From NCBI GenBank assembly GCA_019359375.1, contig JAHHHL010000006.1, positions 123,748 to 187,747 of the forward strand: a DNA stretch of 64,000 nucleotides, given 5' to 3'. Position 1 is the first letter of the stretch; every line of letters begins with the position of its first letter. Position numbers and translations under genes: made by a program. The stretch is from Lyngbya sp. HA4199-MV5 (lineage in GTDB: Bacteria > Cyanobacteriota > Cyanobacteriia > Leptolyngbyales > Leptolyngbyaceae). The notes beneath the pieces were generated by a model. That model made no database searches. It saw only the letters and a list, made by a program, of their open reading frames with translations, and was not told the DNA's origin. Of this stretch, positions 6,720 to 29,663 are shown piece by piece.

Positions 6720-6850
6720 AAGGAAGGATGAAGGATAAAAGGCAGAAGGCAGAGGGCAGAAGGGATGAGGGACGAGGGATGAGGGATGAGGGCTAAAGAC
6801 TAAAGGCTAAAAACCTGACCCCTAACCCCTGCCCCCTCACTTCCTGACCG
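6720..6850. repeat. Purine-rich to pyrimidine-rich dispersed repeat element (intergenic, upstream of pheT)
   Basis: ggcagaaggcagagggcagaagg...gagggatgaggg...cctgacccctaacccctgccccctcac. Confidence 0.7.
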
Positions 6851-6908: not shown

Positions 6909-9437
6909 ATGCGTATTTCTTTAAACTGGTTGAGCGAACTGGTTGACATCACAATGAGTCCGGAAGCGCTGGCAGAAATGCTGACGATGGCAGGGTTTGA
7001 GGTAGAGGAGATTGAGGATCGGCGAGCGTGGGCAGACGGTGTGGTCGTCGGTAAGGTGATCGATCGCCAGCAGCATCCTAATGCCGATCGCTTGAGTGTG
7101 TGTCAGGTGGATATTGGCACGGGAACGCCTTCGACGATTGTCTGTGGTGCGGCGAATGTCAAAGCAGGACTGTTTGTGCCTGTGGCAACCCTGGGTGCCT
7201 TTTTACCGAAAGCTGGGGACGGTCTCAGAATTAAGCCTGCTAAGCTGCGTGGCGTGGCATCAGAGGGCATGATCTGTTCGCTGGCAGAACTCGGTTTAGC
7301 AAAGGACTCAGAAGGGATTCATAGCTTTGAGGGTGATGGGTTGCAGGTGGGCAGCGATGTGCGTCCACTGCTGGGGCTGGATGATGTCATTCTGGACTTG
7401 ACTTCAACGGCAAACCGAGCCGATGCGCTGAGTATGGTGGGCATTGCGCGTGAGGTCGTGGCGCTGACGGGTGCGGCTTTAAAGCTTCCTCAAGCAGCCG
7501 CATCCACCATTCCAACGGGCACAGAATCCTTGACGCTCAAGATCTCTGAACCGCAGGCGTGTCCAACCTACATCGGCACGATCATTGAGCAAGTGACGAT
7601 CGCACCGTCTCCTCCCTGGCTTCAACAGCGTCTACAGGCAGCCGGAACGCGCCCCATCAACAATGTGGTGGACATTACAAACTACATTTTGCTGGAATGG
7701 GGACAACCGTTACACGCGTTTGATGGCGATCAGTTAGGAGCGGTCAGCCATCAGCCGTCAGCGGTCAGCCAGAAGGCAGAAGGCAGAGGGCAGAAGGCAG
7801 AAGGCAAGCTCCTTCACTCCTCACCCCTTACCCCTCACTCCTCACTTCAAATCGGGGTGCGCTTTGCGGAAGCGGGCGAAACGCTCAAAACGCTGGATGG
7901 GCAGACACGATCGCTCCAAGAGCAGACGTTGCTGATCACGGCGGGCAAGGAGCCTGTGGCGCTGGCAGGGGTGATGGGCGGCGAGGCAACGGAAGTGCAT
8001 GCAGGGACACAACGACTTGTGCTAGAGGCGGCTTTGTTTGATGCGGCTGCGATTCGCCGCTCTGCCCGATCGCAGGGGATGCGAACCGAGGCTTCAGCAC
8101 GCTATGAGCGGGGTGTCAATGAGGCTGAGCTGGAAGTTGCCTGTCGTCGTGCGATCGCGCTGATTGGCGAACTGACAGGGGGTGTGGTTGTGGCGCAGAC
8201 GGTTGCAGATGCTCGGAGCAGTCAGCTTTCAACAGTGCGAACAATTGAGTTACGGCTCGATCGGGTCAATCAAATCCTGGGACCTGTCACCGTTGGTGAG
8301 GAACTCGGTGAACTCCAACCGCAAGACATTGAGCGGACTCTCACGGCGTTGGGCTGTGAATTGACGACCGTTACTACCGATCGTGTGTGGTCTGTCACGG
8401 TGCCGCCCTATCGCTACCGGGATCTGGAGCGCGAGATTGATCTCATCGAAGAAATTGCGCGTCTCTACGGGTACAACAATTTTTGCGATACGCTACCCGA
8501 CAAAACCGAAGCCGGGTTCCTCTCGGTTGAACAGGCGCTGGGTCGCAATCTGCGTCAGGCGCTACGGGCGATCGGGCTCACTGAAGTGACCCACTACACT
8601 CTGGGAAAACCGGGTGGCACTCGGCAAATCGTGCTTTCAAATCCACTGTTCGCAGAATATTCTGCCTTGCGAACAAACTTGATAGCAGGACTGATTGATG
8701 CCTTCCAATACAATCTGGAGCAAGGCAACGGTGCCTTAAACGCTTTTGAAATCGGTCGCATCTTCTGGTCTGAGGAGGATGGTTTAAGCGAGGCAGATTC
8801 CGTAGCAGGCATTTTGGGTGGGGATGCCACACGCGGTCAATGGGTGCGCTCTGGTCGGGAGCAACCGCTGACGTGGTTTGAAGCAAAGGGTCTCTTGGAA
8901 AGCGTCTTTCAACGGTTAGGGTTGGCGGTTGAGTATCAGCCTGATCGCCGGGATGAACGCCTCCATCCCGGTCGCACGGCTTCTCTATGGATTCGGGGCA
9001 GTCGGTTAGGCACCTTTGGGCAACTGCACCCCCAACTCCGCCAGGAACGAGGACTACCCGATGAAGTCTACGTGTTTGAACTCGATCTGGATGTGCTGTT
9101 GGATCAACTCGACCAGGATGAAACGCAAGTTCCCATCTTTCAACCCTTCTCCACCTATCCACCGTCCGATCGCGACATTGCCTTCTATGTTTCCACCCAG
9201 GTTTCGGTGGCAGACATTGAGCGCGTGATTACCAAAGTAGGCGGCAGTTTACTGGAAGCGATCGACCTGTTCGATGAATATCGCGGCGAGAATGTCCCAG
9301 CAGAACAACGCAGCTTAGCATTCCGACTCCTGTATCGAGCGGACGATCGTACCCTCAAAGACGAAGACATCGACCCTGTGCATCAACAAGTGCGCGAGGC
9401 GTTAGTGGATAAATTCCGCGTTGATCTGAGAAGCTAG
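6909..9437 (+). CDS. pheT: Phenylalanine--tRNA ligase beta subunit
   Basis: [14 protein letters not shown]; tRNA-binding domain, B3/B4, B5 and FDX-ACB-like C-terminus; contains an unusual 38-aa insertion. Confidence 0.96.
7737..7850. repeat. Dispersed repeat sequence lying in frame inside pheT
   Basis: cagaaggcagaaggcagagggcagaaggcagaaggc...cactcctcaccccttacccctcactcctcac, same vocabulary as the intergenic elements. Confidence 0.8.
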
Positions 9438-9439
9438 AA

Positions 9440-9675
9440 AAGCAGAAGGCAGAGGGCAGAGGGCAGAAGGGGAAGCAGAGGAGGCAGGGGAAGCGAGGTG
9501 CAAGACCATACCGATTCAACGCTTGAAACTCAAAACTCATAACTCTCAAACTGACTACTGACCGCTCAATCAACTCGAAACTCAAAACTCATAACGTCCA
9601 TCCCTCATCCCTCACCCTTCTGCCCTCTGCCTTCTGCTTCCTCTGCTCCCCTCTCCTCTCTCCTCCCCCCTCACC
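9440..9675. repeat. Dispersed purine/pyrimidine imperfect palindrome
   Basis: gcagaaggcagagggcagagggcagaagg on the left pairs with cccttctgccctctgccttctgc on the right; interior repeats gaaactcaaaactcataac twice. Confidence 0.75.
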
Positions 9676-20433: not shown

Positions 20434-23400
20434 ATGCTGGATGTACATGGACACAATGCTTCCTCTGCTCATGCCAAACGCTCTCCGATGGGGAACGGCA
20501 CGTCGCTCACCCATTGGCTCCAGCAGCAGTTGGCTGTGTCACACCTGCAAGTAAAAAGTAAGCTGCGTGGCAACAATCTCTATCTGTTGTTTGAGGGGCA
20601 GCCATGTCCAGAGCAAGCTGCCATTGTTCCTCCCTTGGCTACCGCACTTTCAACGGCGATGATCGCGCAGTTACTGCCGCCTCAATCGCCTCCTGTCTAT
20701 CGAGTCATCGTCTACGGGCGGGAGCCACAGCAGCCGAAGCCTGCATGGGCAGAGTCCTTTGTGCCGATCGTCGATCGCGCCGCCTCACCCCAACCTGCCG
20801 AGTCGAATAGTTCGCGATCGCTCTCAGAAATTGCTGGCTTTAACGCTCAGGATTGCAACGTACAGGCATCAGGTCTTTCGGTGCTGAATGCCGCACGTTT
20901 AGGACAACCAGACGCGATCGCCCACTACCTGAGCGAAACCCTGAGCGCGCTAGGAGTCTCCGTCCGCGTTCGTTTAGAAAAACCCCAACCACCTGCCCAA
21001 CCAGCCTCCTCCCCCACTCCCGACTCCCCACTCCCCACTCCCCCAAAACGCCTTTTTGTTGCCTGCGAATCTGCCTACAGCCCCGATCCATTCCTGTTTG
21101 CCGAGCCGATCGCGCAGCACCTGCGGGCATTGGAACTCAAAGGCTTTCAGGATGCCGTTGTCTTTGGACAGGTCGCTGGTGAAGCCAGTCCTGAGTGGGT
21201 GCTACGCGTTGATCTAACCCCACCCGATGACATGCTAAAGGCGTGGGCACGCTGGGGCGATGTGCAGGCGATTACCCGCTTGCTCGATCGGGTGCTACGC
21301 GCTGAAAAGGTACAAACCTCAGCGCTGCTGAAAGAAGCAACACTACACTTAACGTGCCGAAGCACCCAGCCCTCTGCACCCGATAAGCTGACGACGATCG
21401 CCGCGATCGTCCCCCTACTCGAATCGCTTTCGCCCCAAGGTCTTCGTGCTGCCACACTCTATGGCTTTGCCTATCAGGACGGTAGCGCTGATTTATTAAG
21501 TGACTCCACAGCCCCTGCGCCTGCCTGGGTGCATTGGCTGGATCTGTCTGCTGACCCCCAGCCGCGATCGACGCTTGATCTGGCACAGGAAGGAAATCTG
21601 GACGCGATCGCCTTCTTGCTGACGCGCATGTTGAACCCCGACCTGGATCGCACCCTGGCAACCGGAGGCATTCGGGTACAGGTACGGCTCAAAGGCGACC
21701 TGCTGCATATTATGGGCGAAGCACCAATCTGCCCTGCTCAAAACCAGATGGGGTCAGCGATCGCCCGCTTTTTGAAGCCCTTGCAAATCCCAACGATCAC
21801 AGGGATTCGGGTGTATGGTCGTCGGTCTGGGCAAAAGCAACCCCTTTGGAGCTACGGGGTCGATTTTGGTACGCGCGATCGCCTGGTGCCCGAAGCAACT
21901 CCAGAGTTTGCGGTGTCTGAGGCGTATGTGGGTGATTTGCTCTCGCCGCCCGGTGCCCTTGTACTGCGGACAGAACACCCATCGGATACGCCACCGTCGT
22001 TTCTCGCCACGCTGCTTGAAAGCCTCCTGCAGCGGGTGCGGCAACCCCTGGTCTGGTCGCAACTGTTTATACCGTTAGATCCCACGCAGCGGAACATTCC
22101 CCTAACCCATGCGTTGAGTGCGCCAGAGTTAACAGCCAATCGCAGCTTGAAGGTGGCTGTTGTGTGGGGCGCGATCGGTTTACTGCTGGTGGTGCAATCT
22201 GATTGGTTGCTCAGCCGCTGGCTTAAACTAGCGCCGATCGCGTCTAGCCAACCTTCGCCAACGGTGCTTCCTTCAGCGCCCCCTTCGATCGCCCCTGCAT
22301 CCAACGATTCTCCCTTTGCAAAGCTGTCTCTAAAGCAACGTAAGGCAGGCGATCAAACGGCTTTTAATGGCTCCGGCTTTACTCAATCAGGTGCCTCTAC
22401 AGAAACACAGCCTTTAGACGGCTCGGCTCAAGAGCCAGCCAATGCTCAAAGCACGCTTCCGGCTTCCCCGCTTCGTCCCAAAGCCAGCAGCCTGACCCAG
22501 GGGTTAGAGAGGTATCCCACCTTTAACAGCCGCCAGCTTGACGAGAAGCTTGCCCTGTATCAAGGCTACCTCCGCGAGTACGGCACTCCTGATGTGCTCA
22601 TTATTGGCAGTTCACGCGCCTTGAGAGGCGTTGATCCAATCGCCCTCCAAAAAGCGCTGGCTGACCAGGGCTACACCGGAACCAAAATCTTTAACTTTGG
22701 GGTGAATGGTGCTACGGCTCAAGTGGTGGATGCGATCGTGCGTCAAATGCTGCCAGCGGATAAGTTGCCCAAGCTCATTGTGTGGGCGGATGGGGCGCGT
22801 GCGTTTAATAGCGGTCGTCCAGATGTCACCTATAACGGTATGGTGGCATCAGATGGCTGCAGAACTCTGGCAGCAGGCAAACCACCCATTCCTGGTACTG
22901 CTGTAGCGCAGGTGCCAGATGGAGCTAAACGTGCTGAACCCGCTCCAGAAACCTCTGTTACTGAAGAGCCACCAACGTCTTTGTCGGGTGGGTATCAAAC
23001 GGTCAACCAGGAACTCAACCGACGTTTAATGGCTCTGTCGGCTCTGTACATGCAGCGTGACCAGTTCAAAACACGCTTACGGGATGGTGTGGTGAGCTTG
23101 CTTCCTCAACGTGCGCTTGATTTAGCGTTTGGCAGCGCGATCGCGCCCAACATGCTCAGCGAGGCGACCAGTCCTGGTGCAGCGGCGAGTGATCCGACAT
23201 CCGTTCTTTCTGAAGGGCAGAGCGCGATCGACCTGGATGGGTTCTTGCCGTTAGCCAACCAATTTAACCCAGCCACTTACTACCAAAAATACGCCAGAGT
23301 CAACGGAGACTACGATACCGATTACGACTCGTTCAGCCTGGAAGGCAACCAAACTCAAGCCCTGACCAATCTGGCTCAGTTCAGTCAAGAGCACCAGATT

Positions 23401-23655
23401 CCGCTCATTTTCGTCAACTTGCCCTTGACGAACGATTACCTCGATCCTACACGCAAGCGGCACGAAGACACATTTCAGCAACAGATGCTGCGGCTTTCGA
23501 CCCAGTTGGGCTTTGTCTACCGTGATCTTGGGCAAGCATTTGTGGCTCAACCCCATTATTTCTCAGACCCCAGCCATCTGAATCGCTATGGCGCTTACGA
23601 AGTTTCTCGACGGCTGGCAGTGGATGTCATGATTCCCTGGAATCAGGCTCGATAG
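20434..23655 (+). CDS. DUF1574-like protein: four N-terminal repeat modules, one TM, C-terminal SGNH/DUF1574-like domain
   Basis: Repeats (AIAFLLTRMLNP...VRVQVRLKGDLLHIMGEA...VYGR); TM LKVAVVWGAIGLLLVVQSDWLLS; C-terminal PDVLIIGSSRALRGVDP...DPSHLNRYGAYEVS. Confidence 0.85.
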   Translation: MLDVHGHNASSAHAKRSPMGNGTSLTHWLQQQLAVSHLQVKSKLRGNNLYLLFEGQPCPEQAAIVPPLATALSTAMIAQLLPPQSPPVYRVIVYGREPQQPKPAWAESFVPIVDRAASPQPAESNSSRSLSEIAGFNAQDCNVQASGLSVLNAARLGQPDAIAHYLSETLSALGVSVRVRLEKPQPPAQPASSPTPDSPLPTPPKRLFVACESAYSPDPFLFAEPIAQHLRALELKGFQDAVVFGQVAGEASPEWVLRVDLTPPDDMLKAWARWGDVQAITRLLDRVLRAEKVQTSALLKEATLHLTCRSTQPSAPDKLTTIAAIVPLLESLSPQGLRAATLYGFAYQDGSADLLSDSTAPAPAWVHWLDLSADPQPRSTLDLAQEGNLDAIAFLLTRMLNPDLDRTLATGGIRVQVRLKGDLLHIMGEAPICPAQNQMGSAIARFLKPLQIPTITGIRVYGRRSGQKQPLWSYGVDFGTRDRLVPEATPEFAVSEAYVGDLLSPPGALVLRTEHPSDTPPSFLATLLESLLQRVRQPLVWSQLFIPLDPTQRNIPLTHALSAPELTANRSLKVAVVWGAIGLLLVVQSDWLLSRWLKLAPIASSQPSPTVLPSAPPSIAPASNDSPFAKLSLKQRKAGDQTAFNGSGFTQSGASTETQPLDGSAQEPANAQSTLPASPLRPKASSLTQGLERYPTFNSRQLDEKLALYQGYLREYGTPDVLIIGSSRALRGVDPIALQKALADQGYTGTKIFNFGVNGATAQVVDAIVRQMLPADKLPKLIVWADGARAFNSGRPDVTYNGMVASDGCRTLAAGKPPIPGTAVAQVPDGAKRAEPAPETSVTEEPPTSLSGGYQTVNQELNRRLMALSALYMQRDQFKTRLRDGVVSLLPQRALDLAFGSAIAPNMLSEATSPGAAASDPTSVLSEGQSAIDLDGFLPLANQFNPATYYQKYARVNGDYDTDYDSFSLEGNQTQALTNLAQFSQEHQIPLIFVNLPLTNDYLDPTRKRHEDTFQQQMLRLSTQLGFVYRDLGQAFVAQPHYFSDPSHLNRYGAYEVSRRLAVDVMIPWNQAR

Positions 23656-28729: not shown

Positions 28730-28908
28730 GCAAGGCATAAGGCAGAAGAGTTGTTGGTTGTTAGTTTTTAGTTTTTAGAAGGAGTCAGAAGTCAGGAGTG
28801 AGCGGACAGCGCGCACTCAAAGCTTCAGCCTTTAGCCCTACTCCCTACTCTCCCCTCTTCTCTAATAACCAACAACCAACAACTGTCTCTCACCCCTCAC
28901 CCCTCACC
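28730..28908. repeat. Dispersed imperfect palindrome, inverted copy of 26461-26627
   Basis: Reverse complement gives gagagacagttgttggttgttgg...ctaaaggctgaagctttgagtgc...ctgtccgctcactcctgacttctgactcc. Confidence 0.85.
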
Positions 28909-29663
28909 GATCGCAGTCCCCAAAAAATCAACTGCGGCTCGATGGTGACTTTGCTAGCCAGGGCAGGATCGTAAGCGGTGAGATAAGCATGGAGTCGATC
29001 GCGATCGCCGCCTCTGAGCAGCACTGGGCTACCGGGAAACTGCTGCCACCAGGTGGTGATAAAGTCTCGTATCCCTGCCAGAAGTGTGTAGAGGATGCCG
29101 CTGGCGATCGCGTCTGTTGTATTGAGTGCCCAGCGGTATGGTAGGTGATGCTGCGCGGTAAGGTGGTCTCTTACATCAGGTAAAGCCGCTGTTGCTTGAT
29201 TGAGGGACTGTAACTGTAACCCTAGCCCTGGCAAAATGGCTCCACCGACAAGCTGTTTGCTATCTGCTCCTGTAAAGGTCAGCGCCGTGCCTGCATCAAT
29301 GACCAAAACGGGACTGCCAACAGTGGCGATCGCGCCCCATACTGCCAGCACACGATCGATCCCCAGCGTTGGATACACTCCCTTAAGCGGGACTTGTTCT
29401 AGCGTGACGAAGTGGACAAACGGATAACGTTCCCACAATTGAGATTGCGCTGACACGACAGAGGCAATGTAAAGAGCAGGTTTCTGGGTGAATTGAGTCT
29501 TAATGACCTGCTGTACTTCAACGGGAGAAAGATGAGGGGTGTTCCAGGTGCGATGGAGGTCGTTGCCGATGAATTCTGCCCAATGTAGGCGCGAGTTACC
29601 GATCGACAGCGCAAACCAGCGATCGGAGAGCACTTCAGCTTCTGGGGCATCAAACCGTTCCAT
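28890..29663 (-). CDS. coaX: Type III pantothenate kinase
   Basis: FALSIGNSRLHWAEF; GIDRVLAVWGA; LVIDAGTALTFTGAD; GGAILPGLGLQLQSLNQATAALP. Confidence 0.93.
   Translation of the reverse strand: MERFDAPEAEVLSDRWFALSIGNSRLHWAEFIGNDLHRTWNTPHLSPVEVQQVIKTQFTQKPALYIASVVSAQSQLWERYPFVHFVTLEQVPLKGVYPTLGIDRVLAVWGAIATVGSPVLVIDAGTALTFTGADSKQLVGGAILPGLGLQLQSLNQATAALPDVRDHLTAQHHLPYRWALNTTDAIASGILYTLLAGIRDFITTWWQQFPGSPVLLRGGDRDRLHAYLTAYDPALASKVTIEPQLIFWGLRSVRGEG

Follow-up and report, generated by a model that had tools for sequence, protein, structure and literature searches.

An In-Frame Array of Heptamer Repeats in the Editing-Domain Loop of PheT from a Stenomitos-Like Cyanobacterium

Overview

The pheT gene of Lyngbya sp. 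HA4199-MV5, which encodes the beta subunit of phenylalanyl-tRNA synthetase (PheRS), carries a stretch of tandem 7-nt repeats within the region coding for the B3/4 editing domain. We assign a probability of roughly 0.85 to the interpretation that this insert is a translated heptamer-repeat array of the cyanobacterial STRR type which fills an exposed loop of the editing domain. The array is in frame, contains no stop codon, occupies the same site throughout the genus and undergoes turnover of its content. The encoded segment is predicted to be disordered by AlphaFold2. We further infer the mechanism by which the array was seeded and copied, its actual translation and the neutrality of the resulting peptide. 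An earlier note had interpreted the insert as one intergenic-type element, a reading that covers too little and partly misjudges its nature. All positions refer to the analyzed window, a stretch of 64,000 nucleotides from contig JAHHHL010000006.1, and the in-depth comparison covers one genus.

The PheT Insert Consists of Heptamers

The pheT gene forms one continuous and complete open reading frame (Table 1). Its product contains the full set of Pfam domains (B3_4, B5, CLM, FDX-ACB, and tRNA_bind) and is 85% identical to PheT of Stenomitos frigidus ULC18. The heptamer array is located between L276 and I315. The 38 in-frame residues reported before are indeed present at this position in an uninterrupted frame; regarded as the size of the insertion, however, the number is too high, as the net gain amounts to 28 codons (84 nt, equivalent to 12 heptamers) and about ten of the residues correspond to the ancestral loop. 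From HAFD to GVR the loop comprises 43 amino acids in this protein compared to 15 in most other cyanobacteria.

The insert starts with the units GGTCAGC/CATCAGC/CGTCAGC/GGTCAGC, continues with five CAGAAGG-type units and CAAGCTC and ends with CTTCACT/CCTCACC/CCTTACC/CCTCACT/CCTCACT. Between positions 7743 and 7847 the sequence identity was 72% at a lag of 7 nt and 62% at a lag of 14 nt, while the other lags from 3 to 15 nt gave 40% or less. At 72% lag-7 identity the insert displays the tandem 7-nt unit of the cyanobacterial STRR-type repeats. Block 1 possibly grew from ancestral AVS codons (GCGGTCAGC), which are still present in relatives; one relative (L120) contains GCGGTCAGCCAGAAG within a PheT loop of 16 amino acids.

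Table 1: Heptamer arrays in the analyzed window and PheT loops of the compared genus members (G001–G006).
Feature	Position	Strand	Length	Description
pheT, phenylalanyl-tRNA synthetase beta subunit	6909..9437	+	842 aa	Five Pfam PheT domains
Heptamer-array insert	7737..7850	+	Residues 277–314	B3/4 editing domain, net +28 codons
Block 1	7743..7770	+	10 residues	Four GTCAGCx-type heptamers
Block 2	7771..7805	+	12 residues	Five purine-rich CAGAAGG-type heptamers, near-identical copies genome-wide
Block 3	7813..7847	+	11 residues	Pyrimidine-rich CCTCACT/CCTTACC-type heptamers
Intergenic arrays upstream of pheT	6737..6811			AAGGCAG, GGGATGA, and AAAGGCT units, some stop-bearing
Intergenic composite arrays downstream of pheT	9439..9672			Purine-rich first, pyrimidine-rich last
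In-frame array in 1073-aa ORF	21012..21045	+		Coding SPTPDSPLPTPP
PheT loop, G002			43 aa	GTCAGCx, AGAAGGC, and CGACTCC units
PheT loop, G003			40 aa	GTCAGCG and ACTCAAA units
PheT loop, G004			39 aa	GGAGTCA and ACTCAAA units
PheT loop, G001			32 aa	ACTCAAA units, identical to Stenomitos frigidus ULC18 (L031) loop
PheT loop, G005			29 aa	GTCAGCG units
PheT loop, G006			26 aa	Almost no recognisable repeat

Heptamer Arrays Are Dispersed over the Genome

The sequence GGCAGAAGGCAGA was found 345 times in the 6.9-Mb genome; its reversed control did not occur at all, and among 158 genomes sampled across the phylum the next-highest contained 53 copies. A sample of 1.226 Mb (18% of the genome, including the window), whose densities may run slightly high as it was drawn from the first part of repeat-carrying contigs, yielded 391 arrays with a period of 7 nt. 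Each of the other periods from 4 to 12 nt was represented by at most 34 arrays. A Markov-1 simulation of 0.6 Mb produced no period-7 array, compared to 183 observed. Although coding DNA makes up 84% of the sample, 175 of 252 array loci were intergenic, and the repeats therefore share the dispersed, mainly intergenic distribution of the STRR type. The proposed resemblance of the insert to the intergenic repeats next to pheT was confirmed by units shared with the arrays on both sides of the gene.

Interior arrays were detected in 39 of the 671 mechanically called ORFs of at least 200 amino acids in the 1.226-Mb sample (approximately 6%), the longest in-gene array encoding about 91 residues. Consequently, PheT is not the exceptional case it had been taken for. 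The median of the longest perfect run was 2.86 copies for in-gene and 2.43 copies for intergenic arrays. The idea that interruptions stabilize the arrays inside genes was rejected, since the in-gene arrays are slightly more perfect and give no indication that repeat stability is selected for in genes.

The closest known kind are the cyanobacterial heptameric STRR and G-rich repeats. Cyanobacterial STRRs were reportedly described by Mazel et al. in 1990. Like the arrays described here, these heptameric repeats have a 7-nt unit and occur at many, mostly intergenic loci with variable length. For the GGGGA(C/T)T arrays of Nostoc sp. PCC 7120, the portion of the study considered here describes 68% as intergenic and a notable fraction as lying inside genes (Rehm et al. 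2015, PMC4692102). Unlike the Nostoc heptamers, the present arrays combine many unit types at one locus and follow a strict purine-then-pyrimidine order. Moreover, those within genes are in frame, stop-free and rewritten across the genus, whereas reading frames and products do not figure in that portion of Rehm et al. 2015 (PMC4692102). The units of the insert lack a run of three G, unlike G-quadruplex-capable units, four consecutive ones of which each contribute a G-run; this separates the insert only from the G-quadruplex subtype of the Nostoc and Xanthomonas heptamers (Rehm et al. 2015), not from the heptamer class. Apart from Rehm et al. 2015 (PMC4692102), a literature search for in-frame heptamer inserts retrieved nothing; Elhai et al. 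2008 might describe them.

The Loop Is Extended in the Whole Genus

The PheT loops of the genus were compared. The loop is extended in frame in all seven genomes, with lengths of 26–43 amino acids, and the heptamer units differ in at least six of them, being of the GTCAGCG, GGAGTCA, ACTCAAA, AGAAGGC or CGACTCC type (Table 1). The expected absence of the 38 residues from cyanobacterial homologs thus holds for most other cyanobacteria with their 15-residue loop, whereas all genus members have an extended loop at this site. Independent assemblies, including that of Stenomitos frigidus ULC18, bear their own versions of the loop at the same site, which rules out the assembly error that the earlier note had named as a refuting condition. 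Insertion of a single dispersed element is likewise contradicted by seven extended loops with differing repeats and lengths. The claim that an essential aminoacyl-tRNA synthetase gene harbors an intergenic-type repeat in frame stands, whereas its portrayal as one inserted dispersed element does not.

Since all genus members possess the loop with different repeats, the site is best described as a long-lived, repeatedly rewritten array site. The extended loop is thus at least as old as the genus, its content being quickly replaced. No orthologous site that had recently been empty was found for pheT. The loops measure 78–129 nt, and their differences do not all correspond to whole heptamers or 21-nt steps. 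Simple gain and loss of units is thus insufficient, and other indels or replacement are needed. A model of 21-nt steps starting from a 45-nt loop fitted our genome, with a gain of 84 nt, and G005, with a gain of 42 nt, but not the rest. The G002 loop has the same length as that of our genome. A member of another genus of the same family (G022, L119) contains 19 residues at the insert site and shares with our PheT nearly the same insert peptide of ten residues in the same place.

Block Order and the Case against a Mobile Element

The purine-rich and pyrimidine-rich blocks are arranged in a fixed order. When blocks at most 150 nt apart were counted as pairs, the purine-rich block was located 5' of its pyrimidine-rich neighbor in 47 cases (30 intergenic, 17 in genes) and never in the opposite arrangement in the sample of our genome. 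Together with a congener (9 pairs), another genus of the family (15) and a distant cyanobacterium (2), the ratio over four genomes is 73:0. The order is the same on both strands, and gene orientation is thus not its cause. A hairpin alone provides no explanation either, as the opposite order would also pair, and slippage alone does not explain the order. This suggests directional copying or elements with inverted ends. No precedent for the rule was encountered in the literature examined; it represents a specific and checkable clue to the spread of the heptamer repeats. A junction motif shared between the blocks (GGCAGAAGTGGCT), suspected from three copies, was not recurrent in the sample.

Such an order would be expected of a discrete mobile palindromic element with inverted ends, comparable to Rickettsia palindromic elements (RPEs), REPINs or the small dispersed repeats (SDRs) of Nostoc, that was inserted once into pheT and has decayed since. 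About ten other loci bear composite copies with 78–86% identity to most of the insert, which also fits this origin; six of the nine examined lie inside long ORFs. However, the composite copies have neither a shared linker nor fixed ends, the variation of the linkers from copy to copy argues against an intact mobile unit, and the genus members bear different units at the PheT site. Furthermore, the predicted RNA fold of the insert showed no excess over its own shuffles (z = −0.71), as was the case for the intergenic array upstream (z = −0.36). We therefore regard a mobile element as improbable.

RPEs, reported by Ogata et al. in 2000, are said to occur in frame in conserved protein genes. They share with the present arrays the in-frame presence of an intergenic-type repeat as a tolerated segment of such genes. 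RPEs are defined palindromic sequences, whereas the arrays are tandem 7-nt repeats in which blocks, linkers and the units of sister species vary and which show no excess folding. The close kinship assumed in the earlier note was therefore not borne out: lacking a fixed sequence and a palindromic fold, the PheT insert is not a Rickettsia-type palindromic element, and the parallel holds in effect but not in the defining features. Very small dispersed repeats also occur in cyanobacterial genomes, according to a statement in Bertels and Rainey 2011 (PMC3116915) that cites Elhai et al. 2008. REPINs and these small repeats are mobile units of defined sequence; the present arrays are tandem and variable in content.

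The Insert Probably Lies Close to the Editing Site

An AlphaFold2 model was built from 36 PheT sequences. The mean pLDDT was 86, with values below 50 for insert residues 285–309 and above 90 for the flanking domain. The insert is bordered by a helix (residues 273–280) and a strand (residues 313–319) of the B3/4 domain, both modeled with high pLDDT. The mapping advised by the earlier note thus gave an intact editing domain bearing a loop that is predicted to be disordered. The invariant H269, which aligns with H265 of E. coli, precedes the start of the insert by 8 residues. In the PheRS of T. thermophilus, His261 is an editing-site residue (PMC3275996), and the alignment offsets suggest that E. 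coli H265 corresponds to it. In the simplest reading of the model, the insert would be a disordered surface loop near, but outside, the editing pocket.

This proximity to the editing-site histidine, as well as the retention of the extended loop in all seven species, would be consistent with a selected function in PheRS such as tuning of editing or partner binding. Neither the sequence nor the length of the loop is conserved in the genus, however, and similar loops occur in unrelated proteins, which makes such a function quite unlikely.

Arrays in Genes Keep the Reading Frame

As 7 equals 1 modulo 3, a pure heptamer array yields one and the same 7-residue peptide whichever of the three frames is read. 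A unit free of stop codons is consequently open in all frames, and survival of an array within a gene requires only that the total change in length be a multiple of three. In the 1.226-Mb sample, stop-containing units on the sense strand accounted for 0.8% in genes and 46% in intergenic arrays, a contrast that is partly built in, as an array inside an ORF needs at least one open frame. Among arrays of at least 100 nt, on average 2.09 of the three sense frames were open in genes and 0.39 in intergenic regions. The contrast shows which unit vocabulary survives in genes.

A change by a single unit of 7 nt, not being a multiple of three, shifts the downstream frame and could toggle genes off and on as in phase-variable contingency repeats. 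PheT and LeuRS are, however, essential. Besides, the arrays are located in the middle of genes, all sister PheT loops are in frame and the perfect runs have a short median length of 2.9 copies, and phase variation is accordingly very improbable. Removal of the stretch before the protein works, by RNA-level excision or translational bypassing that would render its coding content irrelevant, is suggested only by the presence of a repeat in an essential gene and is hardly credible. Every site compared over the genus preserves the frame and lacks stops, and stop-bearing units, common intergenically, are almost missing from genes; excision would require neither constraint.

Proposed Origin of the Array

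For the translated heptamer array favored here, the following sequence of events can be envisaged. Heptamer units would arise in, or be copied into, a tolerant loop, in PheT perhaps starting from the native GCGGTCAGC (AVS) codons. The array would then grow and be rewritten by 7-nt slippage together with recombination or template switching among genomic arrays, and selection would eliminate every variant that breaks the frame or contains a stop. The resulting loop would be disordered, and the enzyme core would remain untouched.

More tentatively, and at present rather doubtfully, the heptamers may constitute a genome-wide system that generates disordered loops and rewrites them in hundreds of conserved proteins. 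The composite purine-first, pyrimidine-last arrays would then result from directional copying, for example when purine-rich nascent strands undergo fold-back template switching, and frame-indifferent coding would allow arrays to enter loops and to keep rewriting them.

Repeat DNA of an intergenic kind would here become protein sequence genome-wide in a free-living bacterium, at core-enzyme sites that can be compared over at least seven genomes. The origin of new disordered loops and their tolerance by core enzymes become directly testable.

Arrays in Other Proteins

According to their Pfam matches, array-bearing proteins include LeuRS, MutS2, RadA, UvrA, TrpE, RsmB, MetH, NurA, CheA and other histidine kinases. 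In-frame array sites shared by the genus were found in LeuRS (two), RadA (one), TrpE (one) and MutS2 (three). Their content diverges rapidly between highly conserved flanks in those genus members whose gene could be read; in G004, no whole LeuRS was found and a contig end truncates RadA. In RadA, an insert of 73 amino acids takes the place of a turn that comprises 4 residues in the solved structure 5lkm.

An ORF of at least 922 amino acids, which resembles a class-I aminoacyl-tRNA synthetase by a weak LeuRS match, carries a composite array like that of PheT at G000:C87:57009-57080 (L309). UvrA of our genome (L188:16639-19692) and that of G022 (L270, a 1013-aa ORF) have nearly the same insert peptide of 12 residues in the same place. 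For UvrA as for PheT, the likeness to G022 may reflect either shared ancestry or repeated use of one site.

Within the window, the 1073-aa ORF at 20434-23655 that hosts the second in-frame array gave no Pfam match at 1e-5. Finally, the stop-codon end of a minus-strand ORF (28890-29663) is overlapped by a heptamer array (28886-28912), and the C-terminus of its product may be array-encoded.
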